A stretch of 64,000 bases of DNA from Coptis chinensis (Eukaryota > Streptophyta > Magnoliopsida > Ranunculales > Ranunculaceae), in the NCBI GenBank assembly GCA_015680905.1, contig CM027383.1, positions 40,050,501 through 40,114,500 of the forward strand, given 5' to 3'. The notes below the pieces were generated by a model. That model had not been told where the DNA came from and ran no database searches. It worked only from the letters and a program-made list of their open reading frames with translations. Position numbers and translations under genes: made by a program. Positions 11,042-52,697 of this stretch are shown here, one piece after another (the stretch's first letter is position 1; the number at the start of each line of letters is the position of its first letter).

Positions 11042-13136
11042 GTTTCAAGCAATGCCCAAATGCAGCCACAGTTAGTAAAGGACAAAGTTCCTTGTATGTT
11101 CGAACCATGCTCAGTAAAGCTGCTTAGAAAGCTTTATGCTGTGTCGATCTAAAGCCTAAGCTAGTGGCCTGAGGCTCACAGAACAATGCTGCTGGTCAAA
11201 AATTGGATATATCAGCTATGAATTTTCCCCATGAGCAAAGTACAGAATGATCAAAAAGATTTTGATGAACAAAAGCAATTTGATCATTCTATGTTTGATA
11301 AGAAACAGAAAATACTGATCTATGAGTCAAATCTTAATCAACTCAGATAAAAAAAGGTTTATCATCATTTGTTTACTATCGTTAGTTTGTAAGTAGTTTT
11401 CATCTATTCAGGTACAAAAATGCTACAAATTCATGATTTTCTTCAAATCCTACGGACTACTAGTCTTTGACCAAATCATCACCGACCCAATGAAAGAAAC
11501 TATATATTTGCAATTCAAGGAGGCGAAAGTTAACGTGCATTCTTTGATATAATCTTGAATCATTAGTAATGATCTTCAACTTTTTAGTGAAAGATAACTA
11601 TCTTCAGCATATTCGTGAAAGAAAGCCTATTGAAAAAATACAAGCTAATACACATAACTTACAACCTATGTTGCATGGACGCAGACACGGCTGTAACTCA
11701 AAAAAATAGGATGCGGACGCAAACTGGACGCGGGAATTAAATAATATATGTAATTTTATTTTATTTTAATAATTAAACATTACAATTTATAAACTAATTC
11801 ATATGTATCATAAAATTCATGATTACTCAAAATAAACATCCACAAAATTAAACAAACATATTAATATAGTATTTAATCAAATTTCTCGTAAGTCTTAACT
11901 TTTAAGTCTTAACAAAGCAAGAACCAAAATAAAACCCACAAGGCCACAAGAAACATAGTAATTAGTAAAGAAAGAGCCCTAGAATTCAACAAGACAACAT
12001 GACAGAAGTATTGATAGGAGCGACAGCGGCAAACTAAGCAAGTGTTAAAAGTCCTTGATTCTTCTTTTGGGTGTTCCAACAGAAGACAAAATGCTCAGAT
12101 CAGCCTCAACGGCAGCAAAAAGAGCCTCTACTACAAAAAAAAACACTAAAGACTAACCATCCTTTGATGAATCGCTAGTCGTTATTCTAGCTCATAAAAA
12201 TTAATCCTTGTTTGATTAGAAGTTTAGAACAAAAGGAGTAAAGGACAATAACGTTTTCTAACCTCACCTTTTATAAGCAAGTGAGCAGCAACCCCAGTCT
12301 TCAAGTCTTCATTCTTCAACAAAAAGTCAAACACAAACATCAAATCTCAAAACAAAGCGAGGTGAGAATGAGAATTAGTCAATTAGGTCGTGGGTTTAAT
12401 TGCCGACTTCAATCAGGACTTCAGGACTTCGCCACTTCAAAATCTCACAACATAAGAGAGGTGAGAATGAGAATGAGAATTAGGTCGAGGCCTTTTTTTT
12501 TTTTTTTTTTTTTTACTTTGTCTTTATTATTTATAGGTATTTTGGGTATATAAATCGCAATATTCAAATATTGTTTATTCCCTAAAACACTATTAAGATC
12601 AAATGTGTTCTATGCTCCAATGCATACTCTATCAATCTATCACTTTTATAATGTGTGATTCATGTAATGTCGGACTGAATGGAACAATAACATGTTAAAC
12701 AAATAAAAATTAATGCAGAGAACATAGTATCTAGGTTATTTTTGAACGTACAATATAATTTCTTTAATTGACTCTTGTTTTGTGTAAATTTAAGTAAACA
12801 AACAAACTAATAATTGAAACAATGTAAATCTTCAATAATCGTCACTAATATTGATGAATTCTTCTTTGTCGTCGATTATGCATTACCAGTGCTGAAGATA
12901 AAAAAAAAAAATCAGAAGAGTTAAGGTCAACAATTTATGAGGATCCTATTAGACGACGTTTATGCATGCTCTCCCATGTAAAGGTTTATATCAAAAAGTT
13001 CCTAGCTCATAAACATTGCCTCTTAAAAAAAATATAACCACACCAATCTTCCCGTCTTTAATTGTGGGTTGGTATTTTCCAACGGATTAATTCTATCAAC
13101 GTATTAAATATTTTATGCCCCATCAAGAAAATATAT
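11042..13136. other. Intergenic, no gene seen
   Basis: AT-rich sequence without recognisable coding content. It contains a patch of GGACGC-type motifs around 11675-11735, short imperfect repeats of GAGGTGAGAATGAGAAT around 12359-12480, and a T-run at about 12490-12513. Confidence 0.5.
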
Positions 13137-13358
13137 ATAAGTCGAGACTCTCTCTCTCGATAAGCAGAGGCAGTATAGAAAGCTTTGCCAATTTGGAGGT
13201 CTTTAGGTTTCTCAAGAAATCAAGAGTTTTAATTGAAAGAGAAGTCTACGTGGTGTCATTGTAGGGGATATTAGAAAAGGCTAATTCTCATATTAGAGTG
13301 CCACCTAGGAGAGAGAAAATCCTCCATTGGAGGTCTCTACTTTAGTATATATAATAGA
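13137..13358 (-). mobile_element. Helitron-like 5' end fragment
   Basis: On the minus strand this begins TCTATTATATATACTAAAG, followed by AGAGACCTCC, CTCTCTCCTAGGTGGCACTC and TAATATGAGAATTAG. A related sequence in the same orientation lies at 16785-16931, which is the 5' end of the neighbouring element. Two homologous, similarly oriented termini of this type suggest two copies of one family arranged head to tail. The 3' end of this copy was not located with confidence. Confidence 0.4.
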
Positions 13359-13440
13359 TTTTGGACCCGGGCATACACCCGGGATCTATTAAATATTTTG
13401 TGTGCTGAAAAGGCTTTACAAAATGTCTCACACAAATTTT

Positions 13441-14240
13441 CGAATCAGAATATATTTTTATTGAAAATAAACCGAAATTCGTTAATGAGCAGCGATTATG
13501 GTACATAAGTACTTGGAAACTAAGGGATCAAATTGAGATAGCCTCTTCACTTTATGGTATAGGATATTAATTCGTAATATTCAAATAGAATTATCTTAAA
13601 CTCGATCTAGCTTGTATAATAATTTTCTTAGATTTATGGTGATTTAGCGGCAAATTATCGAATCAGACTATATTTTTATTGAAAATAAACCGAAATACGT
13701 TAATGAGCAGTGATTATGGTGCATGAGTACTTGAAAACTAATAGATCAAATTGAGATAGCCTCTTCACTTTATGGTTTAGGATATTAATCTGTAATTTTC
13801 AAATATAATTATCTTAAACTTGATCTAGCTTGTATAATAGTTTTCTTAGATTTATGGTGATTTAGTGGTAAATCATCACTGCTCGGCTTAATTACGTACT
13901 AATGTGTATAAATCACTAAAATATTTATCAAATCACTAAAACAGATTGATTGTTTCCATATCGTCAAAGAATACACTACTCCCACTTGAAAATATTTCAA
14001 ATTGAGATAGCATCTTCACTTTGTGGTTTAGGATACTAATTCGTAATTTTAAAATGGAATTATCTTAAACTCGATCTAGCTTGTATAATAGTTTTCTTAG
14101 ATTTATGGTGATTTAGCGGTAAATCATCACCTCTCGGCTTACGTACTAATGTGTACAAATCACTAAAATATCTATCAAATCACTAAAACAGATTGATTGT
14201 TTCCGTATCCTCAAAGAATACACTACTCCCACTTGAAAAG
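13441..14240. repeat. Imperfect tandem triplication inside element A
   Basis: Three consecutive related blocks lie at about 13441-13658, 13659-13996 and 13997-14240. The first two start CGAATCAGA(A/C)TATATTTT and share AAATTGAGATAGCCTCTTCA and TCGATCTAGCTTGTATAAT. The third lacks the first roughly 90 bp. Copies two and three also share a longer tail ending in CACTACTCCCACTTGAAAA. Substitutions and small indels between copies point to a fairly old event. Confidence 0.85.
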
Positions 14241-15124
14241 ATTTATTACATGAACGTGTTCTACGATGAATTGATGAATACAAAAAAAATTCTCTTTAAA
14301 GAAAATGCGTTAATATACTTAGAATACTCCCCCAAGTATTTTCTCTTTTTCTAGGTGATTGTTTGTATAACAAAATATATTTATTCAATTCCAACAGGAA
14401 TAACAGAGAAGATCATGTCATTCTATGTCTTTCGTCAATGTGAACATGTCAAAGTGTTAACGTAAAATTAGGTGGGTAAAATGAGTAATGACCATTAATT
14501 TTTAGATTTGAACTATATAATAATCAAATGGATGGAAGAATAGTGTGTCATTCAAATAACATTCCCTTTCCAAACTTGAAGCTTCTAACATACACCTTAA
14601 ACTTATAATAAAATGCTCAAATATTCCATCTTATTTCACCTTTTTTCTTATTTCTTATAGTAGATTTATCTATTCTCAATATTTCTGCAAGCATATTGCA
14701 AAACAAAGTTCGGATAAATAAATAGTACCACAAAGTTCTTCTAATATTGCACTAATGTTGAAAGGGTTAAGTTTGATGGTATTAATAAAGTGCCACAAAA
14801 ATAAGTATAACAATAATTCACACAAACACTCTTCACTCTTTTGGACCAAAGAATTATCATCCATCAATTATCAGTAGAACACTTATAAGAATTTTAAACT
14901 TCAATATATTTTACTACAAAATTATTAAAATTCCTACAACCAAAAAATGTTTAGGTGGCTCTCTTTGCAACCAAAGTTTGTTACGTATCAAGTAAATATT
15001 GTTGAGTTATTGCAAGTTCAACTGTAGTTCTATCGCTTTGAAATGCTCATCACAATACAAATTCAATAATAGCTTTCTTATGTAATACCAAGAGTAGTTC
15101 ATATAGGACATTATATTATTATAC

Positions 15125-15250
15125 AACTTGGTAAGATCCTACTCCATGATGATATGGACATTCTATAAGCATCCACACCCATTTATGAAGTTAGAGAAGT
15201 GAAACATACTTGGCAGGATCATACTCCATGATATGGACATTCTATAAGCT
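15125..15250. repeat. Short tandem duplication
   Basis: Two copies of about 45 bp, at 15125-15170 and 15208-15250. Both contain ACTTGG, then GATC-TACTCCATGAT and ATATGGACATTCTATAAGC, with about 37 bp between them. Confidence 0.7.
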
Positions 15251-16514
15251 TCCCATATCTTTCAGCACTATCATATCTTTCTGCACTTGGAATGAGCGCA
15301 GATTTTGAAAATTTATTTTTAGCACTATCCCATCTTCCTGTACTCGGGAAAAAAAAACAAAACTTAGGAAACTAAAGACAGCCGCCTCGATCAGTTAATT
15401 TAATCCTCGCTCCTGAATGAAGTGATTTCACTCACTGTATCTTGTATTCGTTATAAGAGTCAGTTCCAATTTCTATTCCAGGAACTGAAATGAAATATAA
15501 GAAGGTTGTATATATTAAATTCGAGGAATGCCAATGTATTGTTTATAAATGAAATTAGTTAAGTACATATACTTAAGGTTTTGCTTACCATTTGGGATCT
15601 AAAGGAGATCGTCCCAAGTGCCAAATACAATTTTGCTTTTGAGTTTATTTGTGTTTCCCGATGATATCCGAATACAAAATCTAGATTGTTATAGTTAGCT
15701 CTTATAGTGATGGAAAAAGCTCTATGGATTCACATATAAACGTACTCTATTGCTCTATATATATTGAATAGAAAAACAACATCACATGCATAACCATGCA
15801 TTACATCTACCTGTCTTCCAAATATGACTATCGGTGATCGTTCGATCCTTTCATAGTGTTCTTAAACCGATAGAAGCATAGTACTCGACATTAATGAGAA
15901 ATAACTTGGGAGAGTTTGCAACTTGGCATTTGATCTCGTGTTAACTTTGACATTTTTTGAATCGAGTGTTCGAGTGTATGTATGTGAGAGGTTATGTTTG
16001 GATGATTATTAGATATATATCATTAGATTGTCTAAAGAAACAATGTCATACAAAGAAGCATAAATCAAATGTGCAAATAAAAGCATCCCTTCATAATAAA
16101 CCGATGTTCTTTTTACAGATCTAGACTTTCAATATGTATTATCATATTGTAGCCTGCATGTGTTTGAAAATCAGAATGAGATCCAAGAAAAAAAAATGAA
16201 AAGGAAGAAAAGTGCATATGTTAAAAATATGAGAGTGCGTGATGGGTATTCAGGCACTTACTTGGGAAGTATATTGGTCTACTTCTTAAGAAGTTAATAA
16301 CCAACAATAAATGCAAATTCCAAGTATATGAAAGGGTTATGCAAGTAACATTTTGAGTGTTATAATTTGGTATATCTCACATAATCCTTAGAGAATGTGG
16401 GGAACCGTAGGAAGCTGATTTTACACCATATAATAAGTTATTAACTGAAGAATATGTAGTATTTTTTAGGTCGCGTTAAAGATATATTCGAAATAAGTCA
16501 GTGTTTTATCATAG

Positions 16515-16765
16515 ACACTAAAAATGTGTGATTTGTAATAGGGAATTAGCTTATACAAATCACTTATTTTTTAGCAATTTTTTTTTATTTGTAAGTATAT
16601 AAGAATTAGAACACTAAAATTATTTGATTCGTAATAGGAAATTACTTTCTACAAATCACCTATTTTTTAGCAATTTTTTTTTATTTGATCAAATATATAA
16701 GAATTAGAAATACACTAAAACTCTCTAAATATAAGAATTAGAAATACATTCAAACTCTCTAAAAA
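16515..16765. repeat. Tandem duplication of about 100 bp plus a partial third copy
   Basis: Units start ACACTAAAA at 16515, 16611 and 16712. The first two share TTTTTTAGCAATTTTTTTTT and ATATAAGAATTAGAA. The third is only the distal part. They lie just inside the 5' end of element A. Confidence 0.75.
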
Positions 16766-17308
16766 GATTCCATGTATGTGGGATTGTAGGATATTAGAAA
16801 AGACTATATTTCATATATTAGAGTGCCACATATGAGAGAGAAAATATTATCTCTCATATTAGAGTGCCACCACATAGGAGAGAAAAAAAATCTCTTTTTG
16901 AAGTCTCTGCTTTAGTATCTCAATTAGTAGAGTACACCATAATTAACATGAACATTTAAATTGGACCATCCTTTTTTCTACCACTAAATATCCTTGATAA
17001 AATATTCAAATAAATTATTCAATACCTTTAAGAAAGACTAGTTCGTCATTTCAAAATTTACTACCATTTATACCCTTAAGATTACATAATACCTTAAGGA
17101 CATATATGTAAATTCAAGTCGGAAATCAACTACACGCAAGTATTCAATTGTTCGTGACTTAGCCTTCACATTAATTGTCAAACTATTACCATTTATACCG
17201 AATTTAAATGCAAGGAAACTAGCCGTCTCTCTCTTCATCTTCTCTTCTTCTTCTTATTCCCACATTTCTCTTTCTCTCTCTCTTAAAACCTAAAATCCAA
17301 ATATATAT

Positions 17309-17313
<5 letters not shown>

Positions 17314-17354
<41 letters not shown>
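17314..17354. repeat. (GA)n microsatellite
   Basis: About 20 uninterrupted GA units. A CT-rich tract precedes them (17221-17284) and an A-run follows at about 17482-17507. The polypurine/polypyrimidine context resembles a plant 5'-UTR, in front of the gene-fragment mosaic. Confidence 0.95.
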
Positions 17355-17357
<3 letters not shown>

Positions 17358-17599
17358 TGTATATCACAGACGTCTTTATCTTTTCTCTTTTATGAGTTTT
17401 ATCTTTCTCAAATCTCCCCTCATTCAGTTACCAAAAAAGAAATCTCCCCTCATTCGCTCTCTTTTAAAAAAAGCTAAAATCCAAAAAAAAAAAAAAAAAA
17501 AAAAAAAGATCCCCTCTCTACACTCTGTCGAAAAAACTCCTAAACCTGGGCAAACTCTTTGGTAACTTCTTCAGTTGTACGCTGCTTCTGAGCATCAGT

Positions 17600-19919
17600 C
17601 TGTTCAACAATCCATTTACGATGTTGGTACGGTTTGAGTAAGATAAAGGATGCCATGGTTTTTTATTCAAATAATAATGACTCCATGCTGTACCTAACGT
17701 CTATCATATGTGGAGGGACAGTTTCCAAAGAAGAACCAATTCAAGAAGATAGAGACTATAACACATCAGTAGCTTCTTCAAGCTCAGCCACATCAGAAAA
17801 ACTCTATCCTATTCTTAATGTTGTTGAGCCGTCTGACAGATCCCGTGCTTCCAGAGAATGTACTAGCGGTGTGAGCTTCGCTGATTATGGTAATTCGTTG
17901 TCAAGATTGAGTACAGAACAATATTGGTAGGTGGTACTCTGATGGTGATGGCAAAGTAGATGTGGCGCAAACGTCAATTCAACGTCCAGATAAAAATAAT
18001 CAGCAGCAAGGGTCGGGGAGATATTTCAAAATAATTTTGTAGATAAAACCAAAGAGTCTGGCAATAATGCTATTAGTAATCATGATCGTAGAGATTTCAG
18101 TCATGACAGATTTACAGACAGCAAATTGATTGTGATGGATCCCAAAGATAAAAGCTCATCACTTGATTCTGGTCGAAGTAGGCCTGAGCCAATGCTTGAT
18201 GATGTAGCTTAACTGGAAATACCATGGGAGCACTTTTATATTGGTGAAAGGATTGGTCTAGGTAATGGCTTCTACAGCGCTATAGTTTGTTGTTTGTGTA
18301 TACGTTGTGCATTCCTTTCCTCTGGCTATTCTTTGTCAATCTAATATAGCTCTCTACATTGATTATAGTGATCAAATTTCTCTATTTTCACTTTTAGAAA
18401 TATTAAGTTCTCTCCATCTTAATTGTTGGGGTTCCTGGTGGGGTAGCTGGTGGAGACTGTGGAGTAGTTACTTATGGTGAAATGCATTTTTTAAATATTA
18501 TCTTGCTTGGCTATAGTTCTGCTTTTGGTGGAATAGGCATATGGAGAAGTGTACCGTGCTGATTGGAATGGCATGGTGAGTCTCTCTCACACATACATAC
18601 ACATACACAGACACACACCACACCTGTCCCTTAGACATAGTCTACATACCATAGACATATGTATAACCATCATCTATTTTTTAGGTTTGATAAGAATGCA
18701 ATAAGCACCCATGTGAACATTTATATTTCCCTATTTTATTGTTCAAATGAAAATTACATTAGTCAAATATCATTATAATATGGTGCATACTTGAGACTGG
18801 GTGCCCAAGAATCTGCATGCTGACGAAGACAGCCCAACTAGATCAGCACTTCATAGCCCTATCATAATTTTATCATCCCACCTTGGACATTGTTATCCCT
18901 ATATCCCCACCTGGGAAGAGTTTAATATTCAATTGCTTAATGTTGAAGTCTCAATTTATAGTATTAAGGTTTTGTTGTAGTATTTGTTTATTTAGGAGCT
19001 ACATACAAGGACTACCTATTATCTATGGTTTTGTTGTGTAGGTCATTATATCCTGCTTTTGGCTATGTTGACTCAGGTGCCTGTTTTATTCTTAACAGTG
19101 TATGAGAGATTAATCATCCCACATCATTTAAGGCCGCTCATTCTTTTGTAATTACTGTTGCACCATATTATCCTTAGGATGAAAGAAGATTATTCTGTTT
19201 ATGTCATGGCCATGGAATTAAATTTCAGAGAACTCTTGAAAATTTCATGAAAATTTCATTTTTGGCAGGCAAAAAAAGTTTTAGTGCCCTGAAAATTTAT
19301 ATATATATTAATCATACAATTTAGAATGTTTTTCTTTTTTCAAAAACCTAGACGACTTTTTTTCAGCATTCCTAGAAACTTTGATCGAAACCGAAATTAG
19401 TTCCTTGGTCATAACTTTTCCCTCATCTTCTGCTGTTTAGTGTTAATGAGTTATGACTAAGATGTCTTGGTGAGATGAGTCGAAAAGAACAAAGAAAAAG
19501 AAAAAAAAACAATAATGGGCTTACAGTTTTTCTTGGATTCCTTTCTATGTATTAGTATTTTGTGCAGTCTTAAATAGTACTGATTTGTTCATTTGTGTTT
19601 TTTTTCTTTGTTGTTTGGTGTTGAACCTTAGGAAGTGGCTGTGAACAAGTTCTTAGATCAGGACTTTTATGGGGATGCGCTGGACGAGTTCAAAAGTGAA
19701 GTAAGTGATAAGTTGACTCACAATGTGTTATTTAAAGCATGATTTCTATTCATGAGCGTATGCACCTGTCTTTCCAATTTAGAACATTCTAAAGTAGTCC
19801 GGTGTTCTCAATTGCCAGGTTCGCATAATGCACAGATTGCGCCATCCGAATGTTGTCCTTTTTGTAGGAGTTATAACCCATCCTCCTAACCTCTCTATCG
19901 TCACTGAGTTTCTTCCTAG
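17600..19919 (+). pseudogene. Raf-like (CTR1/EDR1-type) MAPKKK fragment
   Basis: The N-terminal part of a plant Raf-like MAPKKK with introns retained. The first block (to 18261) ends in EIPWEHFYIGERIGLG. The next exons are 18537-18575 (AYGEVYRADWNGM), 19632-19700 (EVAVNKFLDQDFYGDALDEF) and 19819-19919 ([17 protein letters not shown], then [11 protein letters not shown]). All junctions have GT-AG signals. The ATP-binding lysine of the family motif VAVKKFLDQD is Asn here. There is a stop before the kinase domain, within DDVA-LEIPWEH. The next family exon, starting GSLYRI, is absent; the sequence switches to another gene inside the following intron. So the fragment covers roughly the N-lobe only and cannot encode a working kinase. 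Confidence 0.85.
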
Positions 19920-20075
19920 GTACAATTGGCCACTAAGCTACATGCTCTTTGTAGTTAGTTGAGCTCGCTAATAAATTGTTGTTGTTACCTATTTACCTGA
20001 GTTTTTACTGTTGAAAGAAAGCATATTTGTTAGCAAAATGCTTGGTACATCATTCTTTTCCTTATGTAAATGCAG

Positions 20076-20216
20076 GATCCTCTAAGAGGTGGTACAGATG
20101 ACTTGGTCAAAGATCTAATTGCTTTTATTCACATTGGTGATCAAGTGGCTCTTGCCAAAGGTGCAGTGGTCATCACTCCAAGGAGACGCATGGTCCCTGA
20201 GTTCATGGTGAAGTAG
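20076..20216 (+). pseudogene. Unidentified captured exon
   Basis: After a TGCAG acceptor there is a 46-codon open stretch (DPLRGGTDDLVKDLIAFI, HIGDQVALAKGAVVITPRR, RMVPEFMVK) ending in TAG. Its composition looks like real protein. It does not continue the Raf-like kinase on its left and does not match the NOM1 fragment on its right as I know that family. The source gene was not recognised. Confidence 0.45.
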
Positions 20217-20723
20217 GCTCGGAAAATCAGCCCTTTTAATCACACTTCAAATTCCAAGTGATGCAAAGCTTCAGGTTCTCATTACTCAAAACATCATATT
20301 TTTTTTTTGTATGTTGTGTTACTCTTGTAGCAGTAGACCGCCTGACACTCCAACATTTTTGAAGTTTTGATAACGATAACGTACCGTTATGAAATATTTG
20401 GTTAACTTGGTTCTGATAACTCAAGTTTTATCACATTTGGATATCTGTGCCTGACGTTGTGCTTCCCAACTAAAAATTGATTATTGATAGGACTAAAATA
20501 TGGCATTATTCCTATGGAAATTGCCCCTAGCAGTCCTACTCATTGTCCACATCTTTATGAACTCAACCTTTGCAATCCTTTTCCCAAACACATCCGAGTT
20601 ACTTAAGGAGTCTCCTTGGTGTTATATATAGTCTATGGAGACAAAATTTCTATATCTTGGTTCTTTTGGGTCTTTTGCTTTTCTATTGATTGGTTATTTT
20701 CTTCTTTTGCCCTTTCTATGTAG

Positions 20724-21333
20724 GTATGCTACTGGGTTTGCAGCTTTTGTTGCAGGCATGGCCTGTTTGGTTGGGGTTGACTTTAGTGCAAAACGGATTG
20801 CATCTCTAGCTAAATCATTTGAGGTATGCCTACTTTAATAAGTTAAATATATGTTACTGGAACTGTGTGCCTTCACACTTCAGTTTGTGTAGTTGGTCAA
20901 ATGAATCCTACCGTGTTTTATATATGCGGAAAATTATATGCTCAAATGCGACTTTCAGCTTCTGTATATTTTATTCTTTACAACAATCTTTTTTCTACTT
21001 GCAGGATGAGTTTATGAAAGAAGACAACATGTCCTTGCAAAATCTGACCCTTTTGCTATCTTAGTACACATTTGGTGTTTGCTCTAGGTTGGTGACCTCC
21101 ATTGCTGAAAAAAAAATGTTTTACAGTAGCATAATAATTTTGTATGGTACATACCAGCTTCATACTAGATTGGTAGAAAACTCATAATTGTTATTGTCTA
21201 ATAAGTTCTCCACCATCTCTAATAATCAACTTTGTGCTGGTAATTTTCAGTGATTTGATATCGACATTCTAAGCATTTTGAGCAAGTGATTGTTGGAGAT
21301 AGATGTTTCCACTATATTGACAATTTTACCAAT
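20724..21333 (+). pseudogene. NOM1-like (nucleolar MIF4G/MA3 protein) fragment
   Basis: Three exons with GT-AG borders match plant NOM1/SGD1-type nucleolar MIF4G proteins, which act in ribosome biogenesis. Exon 20724-20823 reads FAAFVAGMACLVGVDFSAKR then IASLAKSFE. Exon 21005-21087 reads DEFMKEDNMSLQNLTLLLS, a stop, then YTFGVCSR. Exon 21251-21333 starts SDLISTF and, after a frame change, ends EIDVSTILTIL. Only this short internal portion of the gene is present. Confidence 0.8.
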
Positions 21334-21485
21334 GTAAGTCTTCTTTCTTCTCTTTTTGGAAGTTTACCATGTGAACATAACAATAAGTTATGGATGTAAC
21401 CCATACCAATATGATCTTGACTTTATAAATCATCCTATCAACTCCTTCTTCTAATTGTTTATCTATACCTTCTATTTGTGAACAG

Positions 21486-21569
21486 ATGCAAGTAGCAGAT
21501 AAGAGTAAAAGCGCTAATGAGGATATTGCGGTGCTCTTTTTTCAGTTAGATTTGGCAACTAGAGATCTG
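21486..21569 (+). pseudogene. Possible UVR-motif protein exon
   Basis: A 28-codon exon-like segment between an ACAG acceptor and a CTG/GTATG donor reads MQVADKSKSANEDIAVLFF, then QLDLATRDL. The SKSxNEDxxxFFxQLDLATR pattern recalls plant UVR-motif (UvrB/C-like) chloroplast proteins from memory. The match is short, so the identity is tentative. It sits in the same orientation as its neighbours. Confidence 0.4.
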
Positions 21570-22126
21570 GTATGCTACTTTTTTTTCTGGCATACATTTT
21601 TGTTCTTGAAAAATTATTGTCAGGCGTATTTTAAAAATGGTTGTGTGCTTTGGATATGGAGTGGTATGAAATTGCTTAAGGATTGAGGAACAAACTTATA
21701 GATGTACCTCTATCAAACTTAAATGGTTATCTGGAGTAGAAAATTTGTTTGTTACTGAAAACTAAAAGTAGATATCACATTTCGATGGAATAATAACAAA
21801 GAAATATCTATCTTCTTGGTTTTATATTTTTTGCGGTTAACACCTTTTTTTATAATGTTATTAATTCATTGCTACTACTTTGAAATTGAGTTTTTGTAGA
21901 CTGTTTAAGTGACACTTTTTTAGATTGTGTACTTCCATGAGCATATCCTTGCATTAATAGACAAAGGCATTCTTGGATGTCGACCATAATTTTTTTTTGC
22001 ATAATTCAATCAGATTTTTACTTTTGAAAAGTTATAATGGTAAGGTTCACATGCTGACATGAAGGCGTATGATGATATTATGATTTACAAGTTTAGCAAG
22101 TCTACTATGGTTACGCTTTTACGCAG

Positions 22127-22485
22127 CTAGCTGAAGTTCTTCGCAATGGAAGTAATAATAACTCTTATGCTGTCATATTTGATGTTGGTAGTTCTGTAAC
22201 TAGAGTTCATGTTTATTGCTTTGACCAGAATTTGAATCTTGTGAAAGTTGGAAATGGGCTTGAACTCTTTGTTCATATACTTATACTTTAACTCACCTAC
22301 CATTTTTTTTTCTTTCCTAATGTGATCCTAATACTGCATATTGTGTGTGTAGCTAAAACCATGTTTGAGTGCATATGAAAGCAATTCAGAATTAGCTGTA
22401 GAGTCGTTTTCATCTTCATTAAAGCGAGCAGAAAGTGTTGTGCCTAAGGAGGTGCATGGTGATCGAGACACCAGTGAGACTTCAG
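22127..22485 (+). pseudogene. Apyrase (GDA1/CD39) fragment
   Basis: Two exons of a plant apyrase, which hydrolyses nucleoside tri- and diphosphates. The first (22127 to about 22270) reads [18 protein letters not shown], then [18 protein letters not shown]. It covers apyrase conserved region 1, whose usual form is DAGSSGSRVHV; here Ala and a Gly are changed to Val. The second (22353-22485) reads LKPCLSAYESNSELAVESF, then KRAESVVPKEVHGDRDTSE. No further apyrase exons follow. The pocket residues and most of the protein are missing, so this is a non-functional fragment. Confidence 0.82.
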
Positions 22486-22489
22486 GTAA

Positions 22490-24060
22490 TTTTTTAACTT
22501 TTATGTTACTATATTTTGTTTTGGGCTGAAATGCTCGATGATTATTGCTTGAGTAGTGTTATTGAAATTTGTTAGGATGATGGTTTGTAGGCTACATCAG
22601 GGGCAAGGCACTTGAAAGGTGACGTGTCGGTCTGTCGGATAAACTTTTGCAAGTAGTAACTCTCTTTCACTGGTGATTGTTAGTATAATATATTCTTGCT
22701 TATGTTGTGTAAATATACACTTACTTAGATTGTTCATTACTGAGAACTAGAAACCAAGAGTATAAGCTATCAAGAGCATATTTTTCTTTTCCGGATGAAT
22801 ACAAGATACGTATCCGGTAATGTTTTTGCTTTCTCAATCGCCTTATTTGTATGTTTGGCTCTATTCATGATATTAACATCTATGAGAAGATAGATTGAAG
22901 ATGAATGTGAATGGTTAGTATACTATTTTTGGTTTGATCGTATAGACCTCATACTTCCATTAGAATTTGAATCATATAATAGCAAAACTATATACTTCAT
23001 CATTTTAAGTAATTCTTTAAGATCTAAGATGTGTAGAGTTGAAAGAATATACCATACACTATATACCTCATTGCTTAGATAGTATTGTTTGGTCGATGGT
23101 TTATATTTAGATGGTTAGATGTGTCTTGCTTCTAAATTACTCTTTTCATGCCATGTCTTACATGCTCTCATAAAGAGATCAAGTAATATCTAATGCTAGT
23201 GTTTCTTATATACCTTACCCTTTCTAATGGTTATATTTTTTATTTGGGCATGTCTTTAAGGCACTATTATTAGATTATTGTGTGTTACTTAGGGATTTAA
23301 TCCATGGCTTAGAGAAAATCAGCAAAAACAAATATTGAAATAATAGAATACCGCAAAAAAATAAACTCTAATCCAATTTTTGTCTGATTTGAAAGTCCTT
23401 CAAAATTATGCAGTTGCAAGTTGCAGTTAAGGATCTCAAGACTACTCCTTAAAGATTTTTTATTTAGTAGAAGTTTTTAGTTATTAGTTTTTCTCATTCC
23501 CTTATGACAATTATGGGAGTAATTAATTTATCTTTCTCATTCAAATTTAGACGAAACAATTATTCTTCAATTCCTATGTTTCCTATGTTGAGTATGGTCT
23601 TTGAATCAAATTTATAATAAACAATTGCAATTCTTTGCATGGTTCCGTCTATAGAACCAGATAACATATTTTGTTAGATTATTTCAGTTGTCACTTTGTA
23701 AACAAGTGATCATACATACTCTTTTTAATACATTAAATTTGTCATCCACGTATATAACACATACTTTTTGCTAGTATAGATAATAGATAGGAAAAGTAGA
23801 TTTGTTTTTAAAATGTTCATATGTTGACCCGCATCTCCGCGTCCTAACTTGCGTCCAATGTGATTGACTGCATCTTAACCATGTTGACCGCGTCGGACAC
23901 GCGTTCGAGCCGAGTCCGCGTCCGACGCATGTTCGACGCGGACACAACTCTTTACTATGTGCGTCCGTGCTTTAGAGCTTACAACAAACTTCATACAGGA
24001 AGAGCATGCCCAAGTAGAATTTATTTTTTTCACCTTCCCTGTTACTGTTTCCAACAACAC
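22490..24060. other. Intergenic; GC-rich hairpin at 23890-23928
   Basis: Mostly AT-rich DNA without a gene. Between about 23829 and 23975 base composition jumps to GC-rich with many GTCCGAC/GACGCGG motifs. Within it GCGTCGGA and CGCG (23890-23903) pair with CGCG and TCCGACGC (23917-23928). A shorter patch of similar motifs lies at 11675-11735, so it may belong to a dispersed repeat. Confidence 0.55.
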
Positions 24061-24428
24061 TAAATGACACTGTATCCCAAAACAAAGCCTTCTGCAACCA
24101 AACTGTTTCTTTTAGCAAGCGGATATGAAGCCCTAGTCATGCATGGCATTTTCAGCTGCCTTCTCTACCAAAGTATCCACCCATATCAGAAACTAAATCA
24201 ATCAAAAGATTCTCATGCTATAGAACTCACGGTAGTTAACTTTCTGAGAAACAGAACTCATATCACTCACTATCCATTTTTGAACAGAAATAAATACCAA
24301 CTCGTCTTATCACTTTGTACACCAACAGACCTCAGAAAAAACAACAGATTGATTTTTTCCTATCCAACACCAGCAACAAAGACCACTTGTATTTTCTCTT
24401 TGGGAATATTAGTACCCAGCAGCCAATT

Positions 24429-27400
24429 TCAGGGGCTAACAACCTCTTCCACCGTCCGATGCAGGAGCTCCAGAAGATTTGCAGCTTTCCTCTTAGCACG
24501 GTCAGTGCCATTCTCTGACAAATCCTTCAGAGCTTCTTCCACCCCACATTCTTTTGAAGTCTTAAGATGCTTCCCATCAGCTGTACACAGTGACCACAAC
24601 ACAGCCGCAGCGTTCTCACGGTTGCGTGGTGATCCAGTCCTCATTACCTCCACCAAAACAGGGGTGGGCTCAGCTTGACCAATTGCCACCCTACCTTCTT
24701 GATGGCTTGCAAGGATTGCGAGTATTGCAAGTGCCTCATCTACCATTCCACCAGCAGCATCTGTAAGCAGCCTCATCAATGGCACAACAATTCCAGCTCT
24801 GACAGCTCTTACTTTGTTCCCTTGATAGATTGAAAGGTTAAATATGGCAGTGGCAGCATCCTTCTTCCCTCTAGGGCTGCCATGGCACAGAAGGTCAATA
24901 AGAGCCGGAATAGCTCCTGCTGCTCCTATAGCCACCTTGTTTTCATCTATGACAGACAAACTAAAAAGGGTTGCAGCTGCATTCTCTCTCGCTTCCATGC
25001 TGCCATTCTTAAGCACATCCACTATATCCGGTATTGCTCCCGCGTTAACGATACTTACCTTGTTAGTCTCATTTATGGAGAGGTTGAGAAGAGCTGTGAC
25101 TGCATGCTCCTGAGTCCTAGAATCAGGGGAAGACAATAATTCTACAAGCAGGGGAATGGCTCCGGCTTCCGCAATGCATACCCTATTATCACCATTTCTT
25201 TTAGCCAACAAACGGAGCTCACCAGCAGCTGCTCTCTGATCTTCCGGGTCTCTATTTGACAACTTCAGTAACAGTGCATCAATTGCTGCCCGATCGCAGT
25301 CTGAAACAGATGTACTTGACTTCCAGTTTTTGCACTCCCCCTGCTTCTTTGGCAGCTCAACGCCATTGCTTTCACACCATTGAGATATTAGACTTTTCAG
25401 AACATAATTTGGGGTGAGAGCAGTGTGTACCAAAGTTTGCTGTGTCTTAGGACAAGTTCTGTGCCCTGCATCAAGCCATTTCTGGATACAAGACCTCTCA
25501 TACGTCTGAAAAGGGCAAAGAATATAGAAAATACTAGAATCCCAATCGGAAAATGATTGCCAAACATCACAAATGAAAGGTAAGGGATATGGGAGATTAA
25601 ACCTGTCCAGTAGAGACAATCACAGGATCTTTCATCAGTTCAAGAGAGATTGGGCACCGAAAATCATCTGGAATGACAGGAGATCGGTGTTTGAAAAAGA
25701 TTTCCCCTTCAGAAGTGTCTGCATCAGGGTTTTCTGTGAGAACGGAATCTTTTAGCTTCTTAAGCAAGGCCGACATGTCCTCAAGACAGTCCCCAGGATC
25801 TCCACCACAGGAGAGCACCATTTCATGCAAAGAAAGAGACTCTTTCTTGAGATCGTTAATGGTCCTGAGCTGAAGCTTCTCCGATAGTCTTATTAAAATG
25901 GCCGGGTCGGGCTCTTTTTCTCTCTGTGCAGTTGACAAATCCATATGCAGTTGTACATCTGGCGAGTCTATTCTGTCTTTTGCCCTTCTGAACTGAGCAT
26001 GCACAAGTTCAATCTGAAAAAAAGACAAAAGAAGATGTACTCTGCACTTTACCTTCTGATCTTGTAGTGTTTAGAAGCAAAAATCATACATCCTATTTAC
26101 ATAGAAAAGAGAACCATGAAAACCACAGCTTCTGTAGCAAAGCTATATGAAGCAGGAGTTTTAGAAAGATTAACCCAAATCCTAGATGAATGAAAGTTAG
26201 TCATGGCCAGACCAGGTCACTTGATCAACTTTGCTAACGGTACCTGTTCTTGAACTTCTTCTGATATATCAAGCTTTTCAAAGGAAATGTCGCTCAATGC
26301 CTTCTCAATTTGTTCTGTCACCTCATGAAACTCTTTTGCAAAATCTTCCCATTGCAGAGCCTGGGAAAGATTATTCATTATTTCAAAAGTTGGTCAAAAG
26401 AACCAGTATTTCATCATTTTTAATTGAAAATAGGAAAAATACCTCTAAAAATGCATTCACCAAGACTAAAGTAATAATAGAGGCTTCCACGTTTAATAAG
26501 ATAAAGAAACGGTTGGATGAAGAAAGTATCATTATTCATAGTCATACTTATCAGGCAAGGAGACTGTCTCTACTTTTCAACTTATGAAAGGACAATTGTT
26601 CCATTAGAGTTCTCCCATTACCTTTCCTATGACCACATGTTTCTTTCCAGTCAAAATTATTTTTCAGGTGGAGAACAATTCGCATGCATGCTCATATTTG
26701 CTGAAATTAAACTAAATAATTGGCTTTCCATGGGATTTTTTCCCATATTCAAACACCACAAGTCCACAAACTCATAGCAGTGAGAGTAAATCAAGAAAAT
26801 ATTCTATTCCTCTATGCCAATAAAAAAGATAATCCCATTGTCGCATTATGTGATTGTGGTTCTAGCAATTCATTTGATATTCTAGTGCTTCAACCGCATT
26901 GAACCATTAAAACAATTTTCGTTCTTCCATTTTCTTTTTATCTTACTATTATTCCCACAATCTAATGATCACTTAAATTGACCTTCATCATGCAATACAA
27001 TTCAATTTCAGTAATATCACAAACAAGACCCAATTCAATTAAGCTAAAAATTGAGCTTAAAATCACAATCATTTAACCAACAACATAATCAAACAAGTAA
27101 TAAAAATCAAAACTTGAACGAAAAACAAAACACCCAAACACTAAAAAAACATTACCTGATAAAGCTTACTCCCATCATTAACAGATTTCAGTAGTTCATT
27201 AGCAGAATCCAAAGCAGCTTTCAATTCCTCAAAACCTTTAATAACATCTTCATCACTAATAACTTTATCACTATCTTTCAATTCTTCAAAAAGTGGACTT
27301 AACAGCTTAACTCTTCTTGTTAAATTACTATAAAGCTTCTTTGATGTATTTCTGCACTCTGGAAATCCATAAAACTTTTTCACTGTTTCAAGTAATTGTA

Positions 27401-27431
27401 TTACCAACTCTTTTGATGATTCTTCCATCAC
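24429..27431 (-). CDS. PUB14-like: U-box/ARM-repeat E3 ubiquitin ligase, PUB13/PUB14-like
   Basis: Plant U-box E3 ligase: it recruits an E2 and ubiquitinates targets, with relatives acting in immunity, cell death and flowering. Four exons join in frame at clean GT-AG sites: 27431-27156, 26360-26244, 26013-25603 and 25505-24429, giving 626 residues, close to the roughly 630 of PUB14. Residues 1-131 form the U-box N-terminal domain (start [20 protein letters not shown]). The U-box (about 246-319) reads [39 protein letters not shown] and [20 protein letters not shown], and is split by the last intron. ARM repeats fill about 345-620 (for example [40 protein letters not shown]). No lesion is seen, so it is probably functional. 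The ATG at 27431 is supported by family alignment of the N-terminus. PUB13 is the main alternative orthologue. Confidence 0.95.
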
Positions 27432-27550
27432 TTTTTCACCAAAATCTCAATAGCCCAAACCTTGATGAAATGATGGCTTGAATGGAAACTTGAGGATGGG
27501 AAAAAATGGTGTTTTGGACCAAGACTGGGTTTTGAGTCTTCATTCTTTGT

Positions 27551-27579: not shown

Positions 27580-28002
27580 GTGATATTTTATAACAGTAAA
27601 GTTTATAGTTAGTTGAGTGAGGGTAGTTTCGTACTTTTATTGATTTTTTTGTGGACTTGTCAAGTAAATTAATTTCAAACCCGTCCTACAAACGGGTACC
27701 ATTATATTAAATTATTCTAAAAAATATTTGAACTATGTAGATAGATCTATTTATAAGATATGAATATTACATTGGTCACTCATCCAAATTTCTTGCAACA
27801 TGAAAACCACACTCCATAAAATAATAATAATAATAATAATAACGCAATTTTATAAAAACCCTTCGAGTTCTTTTTGTTATTTAATAATAGAAGTTTTTGT
27901 GAGAATGTCCAATGAGGTGAAATTCATGTTGAATATACTTGAATAGCAACTCATTCCCAATCATATACTTGTCGAGACATTTCTACTACACATAAAACAA
28001 CG

Positions 28003-30158
28003 ATGTTTTGAGGTTAGTTCAATGCATTAGCATTTAATTTCTGATTTTCCGTTAAATATATTTTGAGATCAGTTTATTGCATTTGTATCCAGTTTTTTAT
28101 TTTATGTTAATTCATCTTTAAGGTTAGTTCAATGCAATTACATCCAGTTTCTTATTTCCTGTTTTTCAATTTTTGTTAATTATTCTTTGAGGTTAGTTCT
28201 ATGAATTTGCACTTAGTTTTGGATTGCGTTAATAACTCTATGAGGTTAGATTAATGCATTTGCATCCAGTTTCCTATTTCAAGTTAATTATCATTTGAGT
28301 TTAATTAGTTCAATGCATTTACATCCAGTTTTCGATTTCCCATTAATTATTTTTTAGGTTAGTTCAATGCATTTGCATCTAATTTTCGATTTCCAGTTAA
28401 TTATTCTTTGAGATTAGTTCCATGCATTGGCATCCTGTTTCCGATTTGTCGTTAATTGTTCCTTAAGGTTAGTTCCATTCATTTGCATCCAATTTCTAAT
28501 TTCCTGTTAATTATTCTTTAAAATTAGTTTCTTACAGTTGCATCCAGTTTTCAATTTTCCGTTAATTGTTCTTTGAGGTTAGTTTGATGCAGTTGCATCC
28601 ACTTTCTGATTTTATGTTAATTTTTCTTTGGGGTTAGTTTGATGCATGCAGTTTCATGTTGTTTCCGATTACCCATTAATTAATCTTTGAGGTTAGTTTG
28701 ATGTATTTGTATCCAGTTTCCGAGTTCCCGTTAATTATTTTTTGAGGTTTGTTGAATGCATTTAATTGCATCCAGTTTCCGTTTGTTTGTCAATTATTCT
28801 TGGAGGTTAATTAGTTCAATGCACTTGTATCCAGTTCCTGGTTTCCTATTAATTATTCTTTGAGATTAGTTCATTGCAGTGTTACATCCAGTTTTCGATT
28901 TCTCGTTAATTATTCTATGAGGTTAGTTCATTGCAGTGCTACATCAAGTTTCCGATTTACCGTTAATTATTCTATGAGGTTAGTTCATTACATTTGCATC
29001 CAGTTTTCAATTTTCATCCCACTAATTATTTTTTAAGGTTAGCTCAATGCATTTGTATCAAGTTTCTGATTTTCCGTTAATTATTCTTTGAGGTTAGTCG
29101 ATGCATTTGCATCCGGTTTTCGATTTTCCATTAATTATTCTTTGAGGCTAGTTAGCTGGATTTGCATCCAGTTTCCGATGTCATGTTAATTATTCTTTGG
29201 TTCAGTGCAGTTGCATCCAGTTTCTAATTTTCCGTTAATTATTCTTTGAGGTTAGTTAAATTCATTTGGATCCAATTTCCAATTTCACGTCAATTATTCT
29301 TTGAGGATAGTTTGATGCATTTGCATCCAATTTTTTATTTCCTGTTAATTATTTCTTTGAGGTTAGTTTATGCAGTTGCATCTAGTTTTTTTATTTTTCG
29401 TTGATTATTCTTTGAGGTTAGTTCAATGTATTTTTATCCAGTTTTTTATTTCTCGTTAACTTTTCTTTGGCATTAGTTCAATACAATTGCATCCAGTTTC
29501 CAATTTTTCACTAATTATTCTTTGAGGTTAGTTCGATGCATTTACATCAAATTTTGGATTTCCTGTTAATTATTCTTTTAGGTTAGTTCAATGCAATGTT
29601 TCATCTAATTTCCAATTTCCCGTTAACTATTCTTTGAGATTTTTTCAATGTATTTGCATCAAGTTTCCAATTTCCCATTAATATTCTTTGATGTTGGCTG
29701 TTTCAATGCATTTGCATCCAATTTTCCGATTTTGCATTAATAACTCTTTGAGATTAGTTCGATGCATTTACATCCAGTCTCCTATTTCCAGTTACCCTTT
29801 AATTATTCTTTGAGGTTAGTTCATTGCAGTGTTGCATCCAGTCTCTGATTTTCCGTTAATTATTCTTTGAGGTTAGTTTGATGCACTTACATACATTTTC
29901 CGGTTACCCATTAATTTTTCTTTGAGGTTTTATGCAGTGTTGCATCCATTTTCCTATTTCCCGTTAATTATTCTGAGTTAGTTCAATGTAGTGTTGCATC
30001 TATTTTCCAATTTCTCTTTAATTATTCTTTGAGGTTAGTTCAATGTTGTTGCATCCAACTTGATATTTCTCATTATTATCCTATTTCCCGTTAATTATTT
30101 TTTGGGGTTGGTTCAATGCATTTGTGTCCAGTTTCTGATTTCCTGATAATTATCAAAG
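28003..30158. repeat. Minisatellite, about 38 units of about 56 bp
   Basis: I counted about 38 consecutive diverged units. A typical unit contains TTAATTATTCTTTGAGGTTA, then GTTCAATGCATTTGCATCC and AGTTTCCGATTTCCCG. Unit length varies between about 49 and 73 bp through indels. Every unit keeps the order GAGGTTAG, ATGCATTTGCATCCAG, GTTAATTATTC. Spacers are not unique and the repeat is not palindromic, so this is a minisatellite rather than a CRISPR-like array. No coding role is seen. Confidence 0.97.
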
Positions 30159-30576: not shown

Positions 30577-30861
30577 CTAACAAAAACAAAAAGTTGGATA
30601 AGTTGCCTTTAAATATATATCAGCTGCTCTGTAGAGTCCATCATCAATAACTCGGGCATAGTCAAGCAAGATTTTAATGATAGCAATGAATTTTCGTAGA
30701 TCTAGATATGGATCAGGCGTAATTTCCACTAGATAAGAATCAATGAGTCGTCCAACCTTCAGGACTAAGCCATGACTTGGAGAACCAAGACCTTCAAATT
30801 CATACCCAAAATGTGATGCTTTTTTAGATTCTTTGTATTCGATTTGTTGCAAAGAAACCAA
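30577..30861 (-). pseudogene. NPH3-domain (BTB/POZ-NPH3) gene fragment
   Basis: A short fragment of the NPH3 domain of the plant NRL family, in which NPH3 is a phototropism signalling adaptor and substrate adaptor for CUL3 ligases. Diagnostic residues: VGRLIDSYLVEITPDPYLDL, then KFIAIIKILLDYARVIDDGL and YRAADIYLKATYP. The family form is DGLYRAIDIYLKAHP. The BTB domain and the rest of NPH3 are absent and the frame stops just after. It lies inside Helitron-like element C, so capture by that element is the simplest explanation. Confidence 0.75.
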
Positions 30862-32850
30862 GTGCTAAGAAATCCTTCATTTTATAATTGTAAGTGAGAC
30901 AAAAGTACTAATGAAGTAGCTTAAGGCTAACAAAAATATAGTAAAGCAATGCATGTGAAAGAAAATCAGCATTATATTATATTAATAGCACACCTGAATC
31001 TAAGAACATACACAACAACCAGGTTAGAAAATCAATCAAACGTACCCAACTGGGTTGAAAAACGCAGTACAGATTGCTTTAACTTTAAGATACATTAAAC
31101 ATTAACTTGTGAACCGAAAAATCGGGGAAACCGACTCCCACAAAATTTAAGAAATATCAAATATGAATTGTGTTGTGTGCCTGAACTTCAATTTTAAGAA
31201 AATAAATCCATATGAGCATATTACTCAACTATTATGGTACATGATCATGGAACCTTTTGGTTTCCCTAAAGTATCTATATTATCATGTAGGTTTATATTA
31301 TTTTAAAGTATGCATTTGAAGAATGGTAGTCTGAATGGAACAAATGTTCTAGCATAAACATATGTACACAATAAAATTAGTGCGACCAAAAAATTTAGAA
31401 GTACAGTTTCAAGTTTTGAATATATAGTCCAAAAACTTCACAAAACACAACCTAACTCAGTTATATCGTATTAGATTTGTGAGGTTTACTTATTATTATT
31501 ATTATTATATATATATACAGCCCGGCTCCTAAAAGGACCTTAAATAAGTATCAAATCTAAAACACCCACAACTTCACCTACAAAATGATATAAACCCTAA
31601 TCTTTTGTGCATATGATCTACTAACCATAAATAACATCTCTACAAAATATATATATATAGCAAAACATACCCTAAAAAATAAAAAAAATCTCATTTAGTC
31701 TACTAACTCACCTTCTGTTGAAAAATCTCCTATTTGTGTTTCCATGTAAGAATCTCCTATTTCTGGTAGCGCCACTAACACTTCCTGAGAAATTTATCTA
31801 CTCCAAAATGTCATCGGCATGCAAACTACTAACACACAAACTTTAAACATGTACAAAGTAATTCATTCTCACTTGAGTACACTACTAACACCAAGAACCC
31901 CATTCAAAATTTAAACAACGATCATGAACTTATCAGATTATGCAAATATAACCAAATAACAACCATGATAGTAAGTTTGGATGACTTCAACTTCTAAAGA
32001 TATTATGGATAGAATCATTGATGTCTACCCATGCACGAATTGGTCTAGAAATGCTCTTAGGAAATTAAGAGTGAAGAATAAAAAAATAACAACAACATAT
32101 TGAAACAAATAAAAACAATATAGAATATGAGGAAAAAAACACTTGGTTATCAGATCCATCAATAAGTAACTACATTTACATATTTAGGATGCACTGAAAT
32201 CTTATTATTATATCAAAAGAAGTTTATCCGTTAGCATGGATATGGGGCATGCTAATAACTATAGAAAAAGGAAATATAAGTCTTAAACACATTATATAAA
32301 ATACAGCTAGTAGATGAGGATTAGGTGAGTGAAAATAGTTACTTGAAAAAATTTATTGATAAAGAATTGCTCATATGAAAGAGAAGTTTAAAGCTCCGAA
32401 ACTATACATGTAAGGTTTAAAGCTTTAGATCCACTTACTAACGTTCTTATAGAACATACTAAAATATGTGAATAGTATATAGATAGTGACGACTAAAATA
32501 AATAACTTAACCTTCTCCCTAGATGAGGAAGTAGACTGAGTTGATAAACAATTAGGGTTGGTATATATACCTAAAATGCATGGTTTGTCAATCTCAGAAG
32601 TCACAGTCAAACGTACTAATGTTAGACTTGCATTACCTTCTCTCTTAACACTCCAAACTTTATGGTAAATACAAATCAAAAGAAAGAAGATTTTTGAAAT
32701 CAGCACATACTGGGGAGGTGTAAATTGAAGAACTCGAGAATATATGATACTTAGAAGTTCAAGAATTGGGACTTTTAGTTCCTATTTAGTTTTTTTCTCA
32801 CAGCTTGTTTCTCTAGCTTTTTTATCAACAATTTTTTTCTCCTGATTTGA
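30862..32850. other. Unassigned interior of element C
   Basis: AT-rich sequence with no recognisable gene. It includes an ATT/AT microsatellite around 31493-31516. Confidence 0.5.
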
Positions 32851-33247: not shown

Positions 33248-33851
33248 TATACTAGTTTTCGAACCCGTTCTATGAACGGGGGCCGTTATATTAAATTATT
33301 ATAAAAATTATAATACCTATGTGGATCTATGAGGTATAAATATTATATTGGTTTTTACTTTATTTTGTATGTGTGTTGTTCTTTGTCTTTTCCAGTTCGT
33401 TTGTGTAAGTGTTATCCACATATTCTATGTAGAGGTATGAGATATGCATATTATATTTTATTTTGAGCTATGAGATATGAATATTATATTGGGTTTCACA
33501 ATATTTTTGATGTGATTCCTATGAATATCATTAATTAGTATATCTCGTTGTCACGTTAGATAATGATACTTGGCTACACTATTAATAAATTATGATTGAG
33601 CATTTAGTAATGGTTTCTTGCTTTCTATGAAAAAAAAGTTAATTTTTTCAAGTTTACATCCATTATCAGCTATATTTTGTGTGTTTATGTAAATCAATTG
33701 AGAAATAATTGATTATGGACAGAGTAGAGGTGTCAATTAAAGGTGGGCGAAAACTGTAGGATTTGAGGAGAGAAGTTATTATGGGTTGTATTATCCCACA
33801 ACTATTTCGTTGTACATAGAACTTGTTGTTGATTGGAAATGATGCTATTTT

Positions 33852-34167: not shown

Positions 34168-34518
34168 CTATGACGCCTGCGAGAAAGTTGCCCTCTCTAA
34201 AAATCGAGGTGAACGAAATAGACTGAATTTTGGTACAACTATTCCTCCATCTCGCTGCAAGTCCCATGGCACTCTCCCACTAATGTAGGCTTTGATTGCC
34301 GGTTCAGAATCAGATTCAACCCATAACCGAAACCATCCCTTACTAATAGCCAGCTCTATGCCTTCAATGATAGCCCGACATTCAGCCCTAAAGTTGGATC
34401 CAATCCCGATATTCTTGCATAAAGACAGCTTTAAAAACACCTTCCGAATCTCACGAATAACCCCAATACCGACGGTCCTGGATTGCCAAAGGCAAAGACC
34501 GCCGGTATTTAACTTCAT
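34168..34518 (-). pseudogene. LINE-type RNase H domain fragment
   Basis: Minus-strand ORF with NFRAECRAIIEGIELAISKG, then WFRLWVESDSEPAIKAY, followed by GRVPWDLQ. This is the RNase H domain (RVT_3-type) found at the C-terminus of plant LINEs. The N-terminal beta-strand part LNTGGLCLWQSRTVGIGVIR is degraded; the usual form is LNTDGSS. It separates two RepHel pieces, so it entered Helitron B as a fragment or an insertion. Confidence 0.7.
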
Positions 34519-34994
34519 AACAGCTTTGCCTCGGTGGCACCCATGAACATTGCTTTGTTGTGGGCATCTCTCACCTGCTTATTAAGTTCCATGCTCGCAT
34601 TGTAGCCACATCCCCTTAAAGAATTGTTGCTTGCTTTCGACACCAATGAAAAACTACTAAATGAAACTTGTTCAATACTACTTATTTTGGTTTGCATGGA
34701 TATGCAAGAGTTGTAGAGTGGCAATGGAATTGCAAATATAGTCTTGGTTACATTATAAGTTACTTCTTGAGGTGACCTATCAAGAATCGCCATGTATATA
34801 GTATTAACAACAATATAAAAGTGTTTTGACTCAATGTTACATTTGTATGTCATATTATTCCATGCACACATTACCTGAGGAGAAGTGGGATTAGATAATA
34901 GGTACTACATGGAGACACATTTTGCAGGTTTTTCCTCTACGTCAATTTATAGTCTTACCAACACATTCTTTGATCTTCTATATATGTATAACCA
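34519..34994. other. Unassigned interior of Helitron B
   Basis: Open on the minus strand for 118 codons (34515-34871) but without a recognisable motif. Confidence 0.35.
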
Positions 34995-35552
34995 TCAACA
35001 ATGACTGTTTGACGTAAACGTCCACGCACCTATCCAAAGTAATCGACCTTCTAGTGTCCTTCTTTGTAGTCTAAAAGCCCAATATTGTCTCATACTAACC
35101 GTATCTCTTTTATGATCGTTTATATTAAAAACTCTTTCATTTTCCTCACTATTAGGAAATCTTCTATAAGGAATCCAAGGTCTATAGCCATCTTCACCAC
35201 GGGGAAACATTAAAGGATATTGCAAAGCCATGAATTTAGGATGCAATTCATTTATTCTCTCCAAACCTCCAACAATTATGTCCCTAAAATCATTAACATT
35301 AAATCCATCCCCTTTAATTAAAGTTGCAACTTCATTGCCAGTTGGCAGATTGTATTGTCTTCCATCACTCTGCCGAGAATTAATAAGTCTTAGGCAGACA
35401 TCAATCATTTCATCTTCTTTAAATATGTCTCTAGCCATCCTAAAAGACTGTACAACTTTATTGTGTTGATCAAACATTTTGATCAATCCATCAACAATTG
35501 CAGGATCAGGAAGTTCATTATATTCATTGAATATTTGCATCCTATTCTTCAA
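34995..35552 (-). pseudogene. Helitron RepHel, Helitron_like_N domain fragment
   Basis: A 185-codon open stretch matches the Helitron helicase-like N-terminal domain. It contains KMFDQHNKVVQSFRMARDIF, then VCLRLINSRQSDGRQYNLPT, NEVATLIKGDGFNVNDFRDI, RINELHPKFMALQYPLMFPR and GEDGYRPWIPYRRFPNSEEN, ending SMRQYWAFRLQRR. After that the sequence jumps to EGRLLWIGAW, skipping family residues, and stops. The HUH Rep nuclease and the Pif1-type helicase are missing from the window. Confidence 0.9.
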
Positions 35553-35554
35553 TT

Positions 35555-51886: not shown

Positions 51887-51927
51887 GGTACCTGATGAAA
51901 TATGATAAGCTCGTATGATGGCTCTTC

Positions 51928-52482: not shown

Positions 52483-52697
52483 TTGGGAAATGGCAGTTGA
52501 GAAGTCTCATTGTTACCTTGGATGTAGTCAGCAAGCCGACCTTGAAATTTTGTGATCCCTTTGTGTTCTTCCGTGAAGAAGTCACAAGTTGGTTTTTGAA
52601 GGAGCCAATTTTCTCTCCAAATATTGATAGACCTGCCATTGCCCACTGTCCAGCCATGATGCTCTGCCATTTCTTTAAGAGCCCATCTAATCCCCTT

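Follow-up and report, generated by a model that had tools for sequence, protein, structure and literature searches.

A decayed mosaic of unrelated gene fragments with retained introns in Coptis chinensis, and a Helitron as its candidate carrier

Introduction

Between 17.6 and 22.485 kb of the Coptis chinensis DNA studied here (the window, a stretch of 64,000 nucleotides), blocks of exons follow one another on the plus strand only, with their introns kept, in the order kinase, exon B, NOM1-like exons, a 28-codon exon and apyrase. The question raised by this locus is from how many genes these blocks derive and what brought them together. Helitrons, rolling-circle DNA transposons that pick up gene fragments step by step, are one kind of carrier to be considered. 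The window is plant-like in its content, with a plant U-box ARM region (E-value of 6.2e-28) and members of the NPH3 and Auxin_inducible families. The mosaic is best read as a decayed gene-capture patchwork, which adds an instance but not a kind to a known class.

Source genes of the mosaic

An earlier note on this DNA had read the first block as the N-lobe of a Raf-like MAPKKK, and this was confirmed with both Pfam and PDB for exons within 18,213-19,919. These exons matched the Pfam family PK_Tyr_Ser-Thr (5.3e-13), and the closest PDB sequence was CTR1 (2.8e-29, the best among the 60 listed of 68 PDB matches at 1e-10 or better). The block comprises four exons (Table 1); three of them, of 39, 69, and 101 bases, make up the N-lobe together with the last part of a long exon 1. 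Of exon 1, only this last part (LEIPWEHFYIGERIGLG) lies within the CTR1 match; the start of the exon 1 region on its own (17,592-17,924) had no Pfam match. Decay of the kinase is apparent from exon 1, which shifts frame and has stops. The lysine of the VAVK motif of CTR1, for which exon 3 carries an asparagine, is presumably the catalytic lysine.

The identification of the last block as an apyrase was likewise borne out in 22,127-22,485, by matches to Pfam GDA1_CD39 (6.3e-14) and to the PDB apyrases 5u7x (2.6e-17) and 5u7p (1.1e-16). Both exons are open, but a motif in the first of them is altered with respect to DAGSSGSRVHV in 5u7x.

The three exons in 20,724-21,333 are tentatively assigned to NOM1. 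The earlier note had named this gene as well, but no support came from Pfam (0 families), from the PDB sequences (only an unrelated match, E 0.66), or from BLASTP against an approximate stretch of human NOM1. With this approximate query no alignment to the exons was obtained, and the matches of the query on its own were weak and limited to CWC22-type MIF4G proteins (0.027).

Exon B (20,076-20,274) had no Pfam or PDB match, and no Pfam family was found in the 28-codon exon. A possible UVR-type exon, which had also been proposed, did not hold up: Pfam gave no UVR family in 21,251-21,569, only a sub-threshold match to WWE_1 (0.087), and the open frame at 21,251-21,333 that precedes the supposed UVR exon is one of the three frames of NOM1-like exon c.

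Two unrelated source genes, those of the kinase and the apyrase, were identified by database tools. The number rises to three if NOM1 is accepted, and to as many as five if exon B and the 28-codon exon each have a parent of their own. Of the "at least three, perhaps five unrelated genes" of the earlier note, the kinase and the apyrase therefore stand by tool and NOM1 tentatively, and the UVR-type gene finds no support.

Table 1 Features of the mosaic and of the candidate element around it (positions in the window)
Feature	Position	Strand	Remarks
CT-rich stretch with (AG)20 and A25	17230..17507		Upstream of the mosaic
Raf-like MAPKKK exon 1 (start not defined)	17602..18261	+	Three open pieces in two frames, with stops between them
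MAPKKK exon 2 (AYGEVYRADWNGM)	18537..18575	+	Pfam and CTR1 match; out of phase with exon 1
MAPKKK exon 3	19632..19700	+	CTR1 match; N in place of the CTR1 VAVK lysine
MAPKKK exon 4	19819..19919	+	CTR1 match; ends with TEFLPR, then GT donor
Exon B	20076..20274	+	Two stops in the best frame
NOM1-like exon a (tentative identity)	20724..20823	+	Frame reading
NOM1-like exon b (tentative identity)	21005..21087	+	One stop
NOM1-like exon c (tentative identity)	21251..21333	+	Two stops in the NOM1-like frame
28-codon open exon	21486..21569	+	Between AG and GT
Apyrase exon, first	22127..22270	+	Pfam and PDB match; 11-residue motif differs from DAGSSGSRVHV of 5u7x
Apyrase exon, next	22353..22485	+	Pfam and PDB match; open
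Candidate Helitron 5' end, A followed by TCTATACTA	23772..23781	-	Element would start at 23,780
Candidate Helitron 3' end	13354..13400	-	CCCGGG hairpin, 8 nt, CTAT, then T

Introns, joins, and coding potential

Introns and GT-AG borders had been said to be kept, and borders do stand where the frames end; because they were placed on GT and AG by hand, this is a matter of consistency rather than an independent test. Each kinase exon is separated from the next by an intron, as are the two apyrase exons, which upholds the claim that retroposition is excluded; a processed retrocopy or chimeric retrogene was rejected on this ground. With the kinase and the apyrase, pieces of at least two unrelated host genes adjoin with their introns kept, as in transduplicated gene-fragment mosaics in general. 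The joins between the blocks are confined to 19,920-20,075, 20,275-20,723, 21,334-21,485, and 21,570-22,126, none of which overlaps an exon as drawn, and may fall inside introns. The CT/GA-rich stretch reported just upstream of the mosaic is there as well, with (AG)20 at 17,314-17,354 and A25 at 17,483-17,507. No second copy of the mosaic was detected in the rest of the window by tblastx of 17,600-22,600 (17,000-23,000 masked; no match at 0.01), and tblastn of the five block peptides against the window gave matches inside the mosaic only, one of them weak (0.64).

Joining the exons as drawn yields a virtual spliced transcript of 1,695 bases, in which no frame runs through the whole mosaic. Its longest open frame, of 145 codons, leads from NOM1-like exon c through the 28-codon exon into both apyrase exons; 120 of these codons run from an ATG at 21,486, and in exon c the frame is not the NOM1-like one. 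It could be a product of chance, the odds of two in-phase joins being about 1 in 9. In favour of a single functional host gene, the 28-codon exon is open, as is each of the two apyrase exons, and all three are in phase. Against such a gene speak the unrelated families to which the blocks belong and the frames of the kinase and NOM1-like blocks, which are broken by stops and frameshifts. As to an artefact of assembly, no N runs are present in the window. Either of the two is considered very improbable. Similarly improbable is a mosaic that continues to be transcribed, with splicing from block to block. If it were so, the 145-codon frame might give a new chimeric peptide, or the RNA might act on the kinase and apyrase genes from which the fragments derive.

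A candidate Helitron around the mosaic

In the reading that we prefer, genomic pieces with exons and introns alike, from two or more unrelated host genes (probably three), would have been copied into one place in the same orientation and would have decayed since, and the resulting transduplication mosaic would now be dead or almost so. The most likely carrier would be a Helitron, and the specific candidate is an element of 10,427 bp on the minus strand, with its 5' end at 23,780 and its 3' end at 13,354, in which the mosaic would be enclosed in antisense. We put the chances that the mosaic arose by transduplication, with a Helitron as the most likely carrier and 13,354-23,780 as the candidate, at about even. 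In favour is the presence, inside 4.9 kb, of intron-bearing fragments of a kinase and of an unrelated apyrase, each of them single in the window, and that of Helitron remnants elsewhere in the window (a transposase piece and 3' ends). The CTAT in place of CTRR, the antisense orientation of the fragments relative to the element, and a rival, weaker 5'-like end near 16.9 kb count against the candidate.

The 5' end shows the TC after A that marks a Helitron (A followed by TCTATACTA, 23,781-23,772), although the string is short and could still be due to chance. The same letters start three of four maize junction rows given in PMC10095026, including those of Hel1-4 and Hel1158; the fourth row, that of HelA2, begins with TCTCTACTAC. 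A single instance of the exact string ATCTATACTA is present in the window (23,781, minus strand), with an expectation of 0.22 per window and of 0.004 in a single-strand stretch of 1,945 nt. No excess was seen for the 5' pattern with one mismatch (10 found versus a mean of 6.80) or for a relaxed pattern (3 found versus 2.7 expected). The A and T that flank the candidate ends are those required for Helitron insertion according to PMC4683698.

In a Helitron, the 3' end should be preceded at some 10-12 nt by a G/C-rich hairpin, and at 13,354 a CCCGGG stem stands 8 nt before CTAT; its folding has a z of -3.77, with one of 200 shuffles folding as well. The last letters, CTAT followed by T at 13,357-13,354, are one base off the CTRR that should precede T, and for this reason the element was not filed as a Helitron. 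The site at 13,357 was first seen together with another CTRR 20 nt further on. Strict Helitron-3'-like ends (CTRRT) number two in the window, at 33,255 and 1,177, both on the minus strand, and a relaxed pattern, in which the last R was left free after the 13,357 site had been seen, adds that site, also on the minus strand, as a third. In 100 Markov sequences the means were 0.04 for the strict and 0.08 for the relaxed pattern, and the largest number was 1.

At 16,783-16,918 stands a repeat, degenerate and end-like, that is homologous to 13,258-13,348. The two may be the 5' ends of another family, and the repeat at 16,783-16,918 could also be the true partner of the end at 13,354, in which case the element would measure 3.5 kb and the mosaic would lie outside it. 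Downstream of the mosaic, the plus strand yielded no Helitron end; a plus-strand end at 23,771 was dropped because its hairpin is no better than shuffles (z 0.91, 160/200). The hairpin with CTAGT at 1,177 on the minus strand is strong and Helitron-end-like and was set aside since the 13,354 end is nearer to the mosaic. Ten of the open reading frames in or overlapping 13,275-17,700 and 22,894-23,114 had no Pfam family at the cut-off, with weak matches at 0.065 and 0.13. Tandem repeats of 218 and about 247 bases occupy 13,433-14,288, just inside the candidate 3' end.

Capture by a Helitron or a Pack-MULE had been put forward earlier. The Helitron now has a concrete candidate, but for the Pack-MULE no convincing pair of inverted repeats and target duplication emerged. 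A Pack-type element with terminal inverted repeats (TIRs), be it a CACTA such as Tgm-Express1 or a Pack-MULE, whose repeats have decayed or lie outside the ranges searched, is held to be quite unlikely. Tgm-Express1, nearly the same in form, packs exonic and intronic pieces of five genes into 5.7 kb (PMC1947982), and TIRs paired with a target site duplication (TSD) of 5 bases numbered four versus none in three nulls (with 6 bases, one versus one). In total, however, the 34 candidate TIR and TSD pairs compare with 26, 32, and 15 in the nulls, in a scan that covered repeats of up to 12 bases with 2 mismatches. Among the 25 longest of 95, the inverted repeats that bridge the mosaic are short, A/T-rich, and at 72-78 %, and the best CACTA-type pair (9/13, of 30 pairs) has unequal flanks. 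No convincing TIR with TSD of the Pack-MULE or Pack-CACTA kind was found in 13,000-17,650 and 22,486-24,430.

The mosaic might also have been assembled piecemeal in a repeat-rich intergenic stretch, by separate partial duplications or as filler DNA in double-strand-break repair, with no capturing transposon. This origin, which we think unlikely, fits a mosaic without certain transposon borders and the lone NPH3-family fragment (30,580-30,864, minus strand, 7.5e-20) 8 kb away on the opposite strand. It accords less well with up to five blocks on one strand within 4.9 kb and with the nested Helitron remnants nearby.

Other elements and genes in the window

A U-box/ARM gene (24,432-27,446, minus strand) lies downstream of the mosaic, tail to tail with it. 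A remnant of a Helitron transposase, an N-terminal piece, is found at 34,998-35,579 on the minus strand (Helraiser 7lcc, 2.7e-5; no Pfam match) and is followed downstream on that strand by a hairpin and an end of CTAG followed by T (33,252-33,290, with CTAG at 33,252-33,255). Remnant and Helitron-type 3' end are located 10-13 kb downstream of the mosaic, and a degraded partial copy of the latter (84 % over 51 nt) is present at 27,673-27,723. A degenerate array of about 34 copies of a 55-base repeat, with 73 % matches, extends from 28,006 to 30,154. Pieces of a non-LTR-type retroelement were detected at 51,539-54,969 on the minus strand (reverse transcriptase, 3e-11; RVT_3, 8.4e-18), as was a further RVT_3 piece at 34,171-34,578 (1.9e-7). 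An Auxin_inducible (SAUR-type) open frame is situated at 59,061-59,462 on the minus strand (8.1e-19).

Comparison with known systems

The locus would be one more case of transposons setting exons of unrelated genes side by side. Should the Helitron borders hold, it would offer an example, dated and decayed, of the capture of several genes in antisense; should they fail, it would show that such mosaics readily persist even where no borders can be seen. In neither case would the field be changed. Pack-MULEs and Helitrons that carry gene fragments are known in the thousands, some of them in chimeric transcripts (reviewed in PMC13317346). Our literature searches found no paper that joins Helitron with apyrase, Pack-MULE with multiple loci, or Helitron with AATCTAGT and hairpin.

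With the Pack-MULEs and other Pack-TYPE elements as described in PMC13317346 and PMC8903248, the mosaic has in common that host gene fragments are shuffled and, presumably here too, carried by a transposon; unlike it, those elements depend on TIRs and target duplications, of which no convincing pair emerged here. The soybean CACTA element Tgm-Express1, which carries pieces of five genes, is similar in its length of about 5 kb, in its exonic and intronic pieces of unrelated genes, and in the GT-AG borders kept (PMC1947982). It differs in having inverted-repeat ends, of a kind not seen here, and chimeric transcripts that have been shown. The maize helA Helitrons carry 0-12 fragments each, with a mean of 3, which were gained stepwise (PMC3288121). 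They share with the mosaic the presence of several gene fragments within one stretch; the maize elements are complete, begin with TC, end with CTAG, and have related copies, whereas here one end is off CTRR and the borders are those of a candidate.
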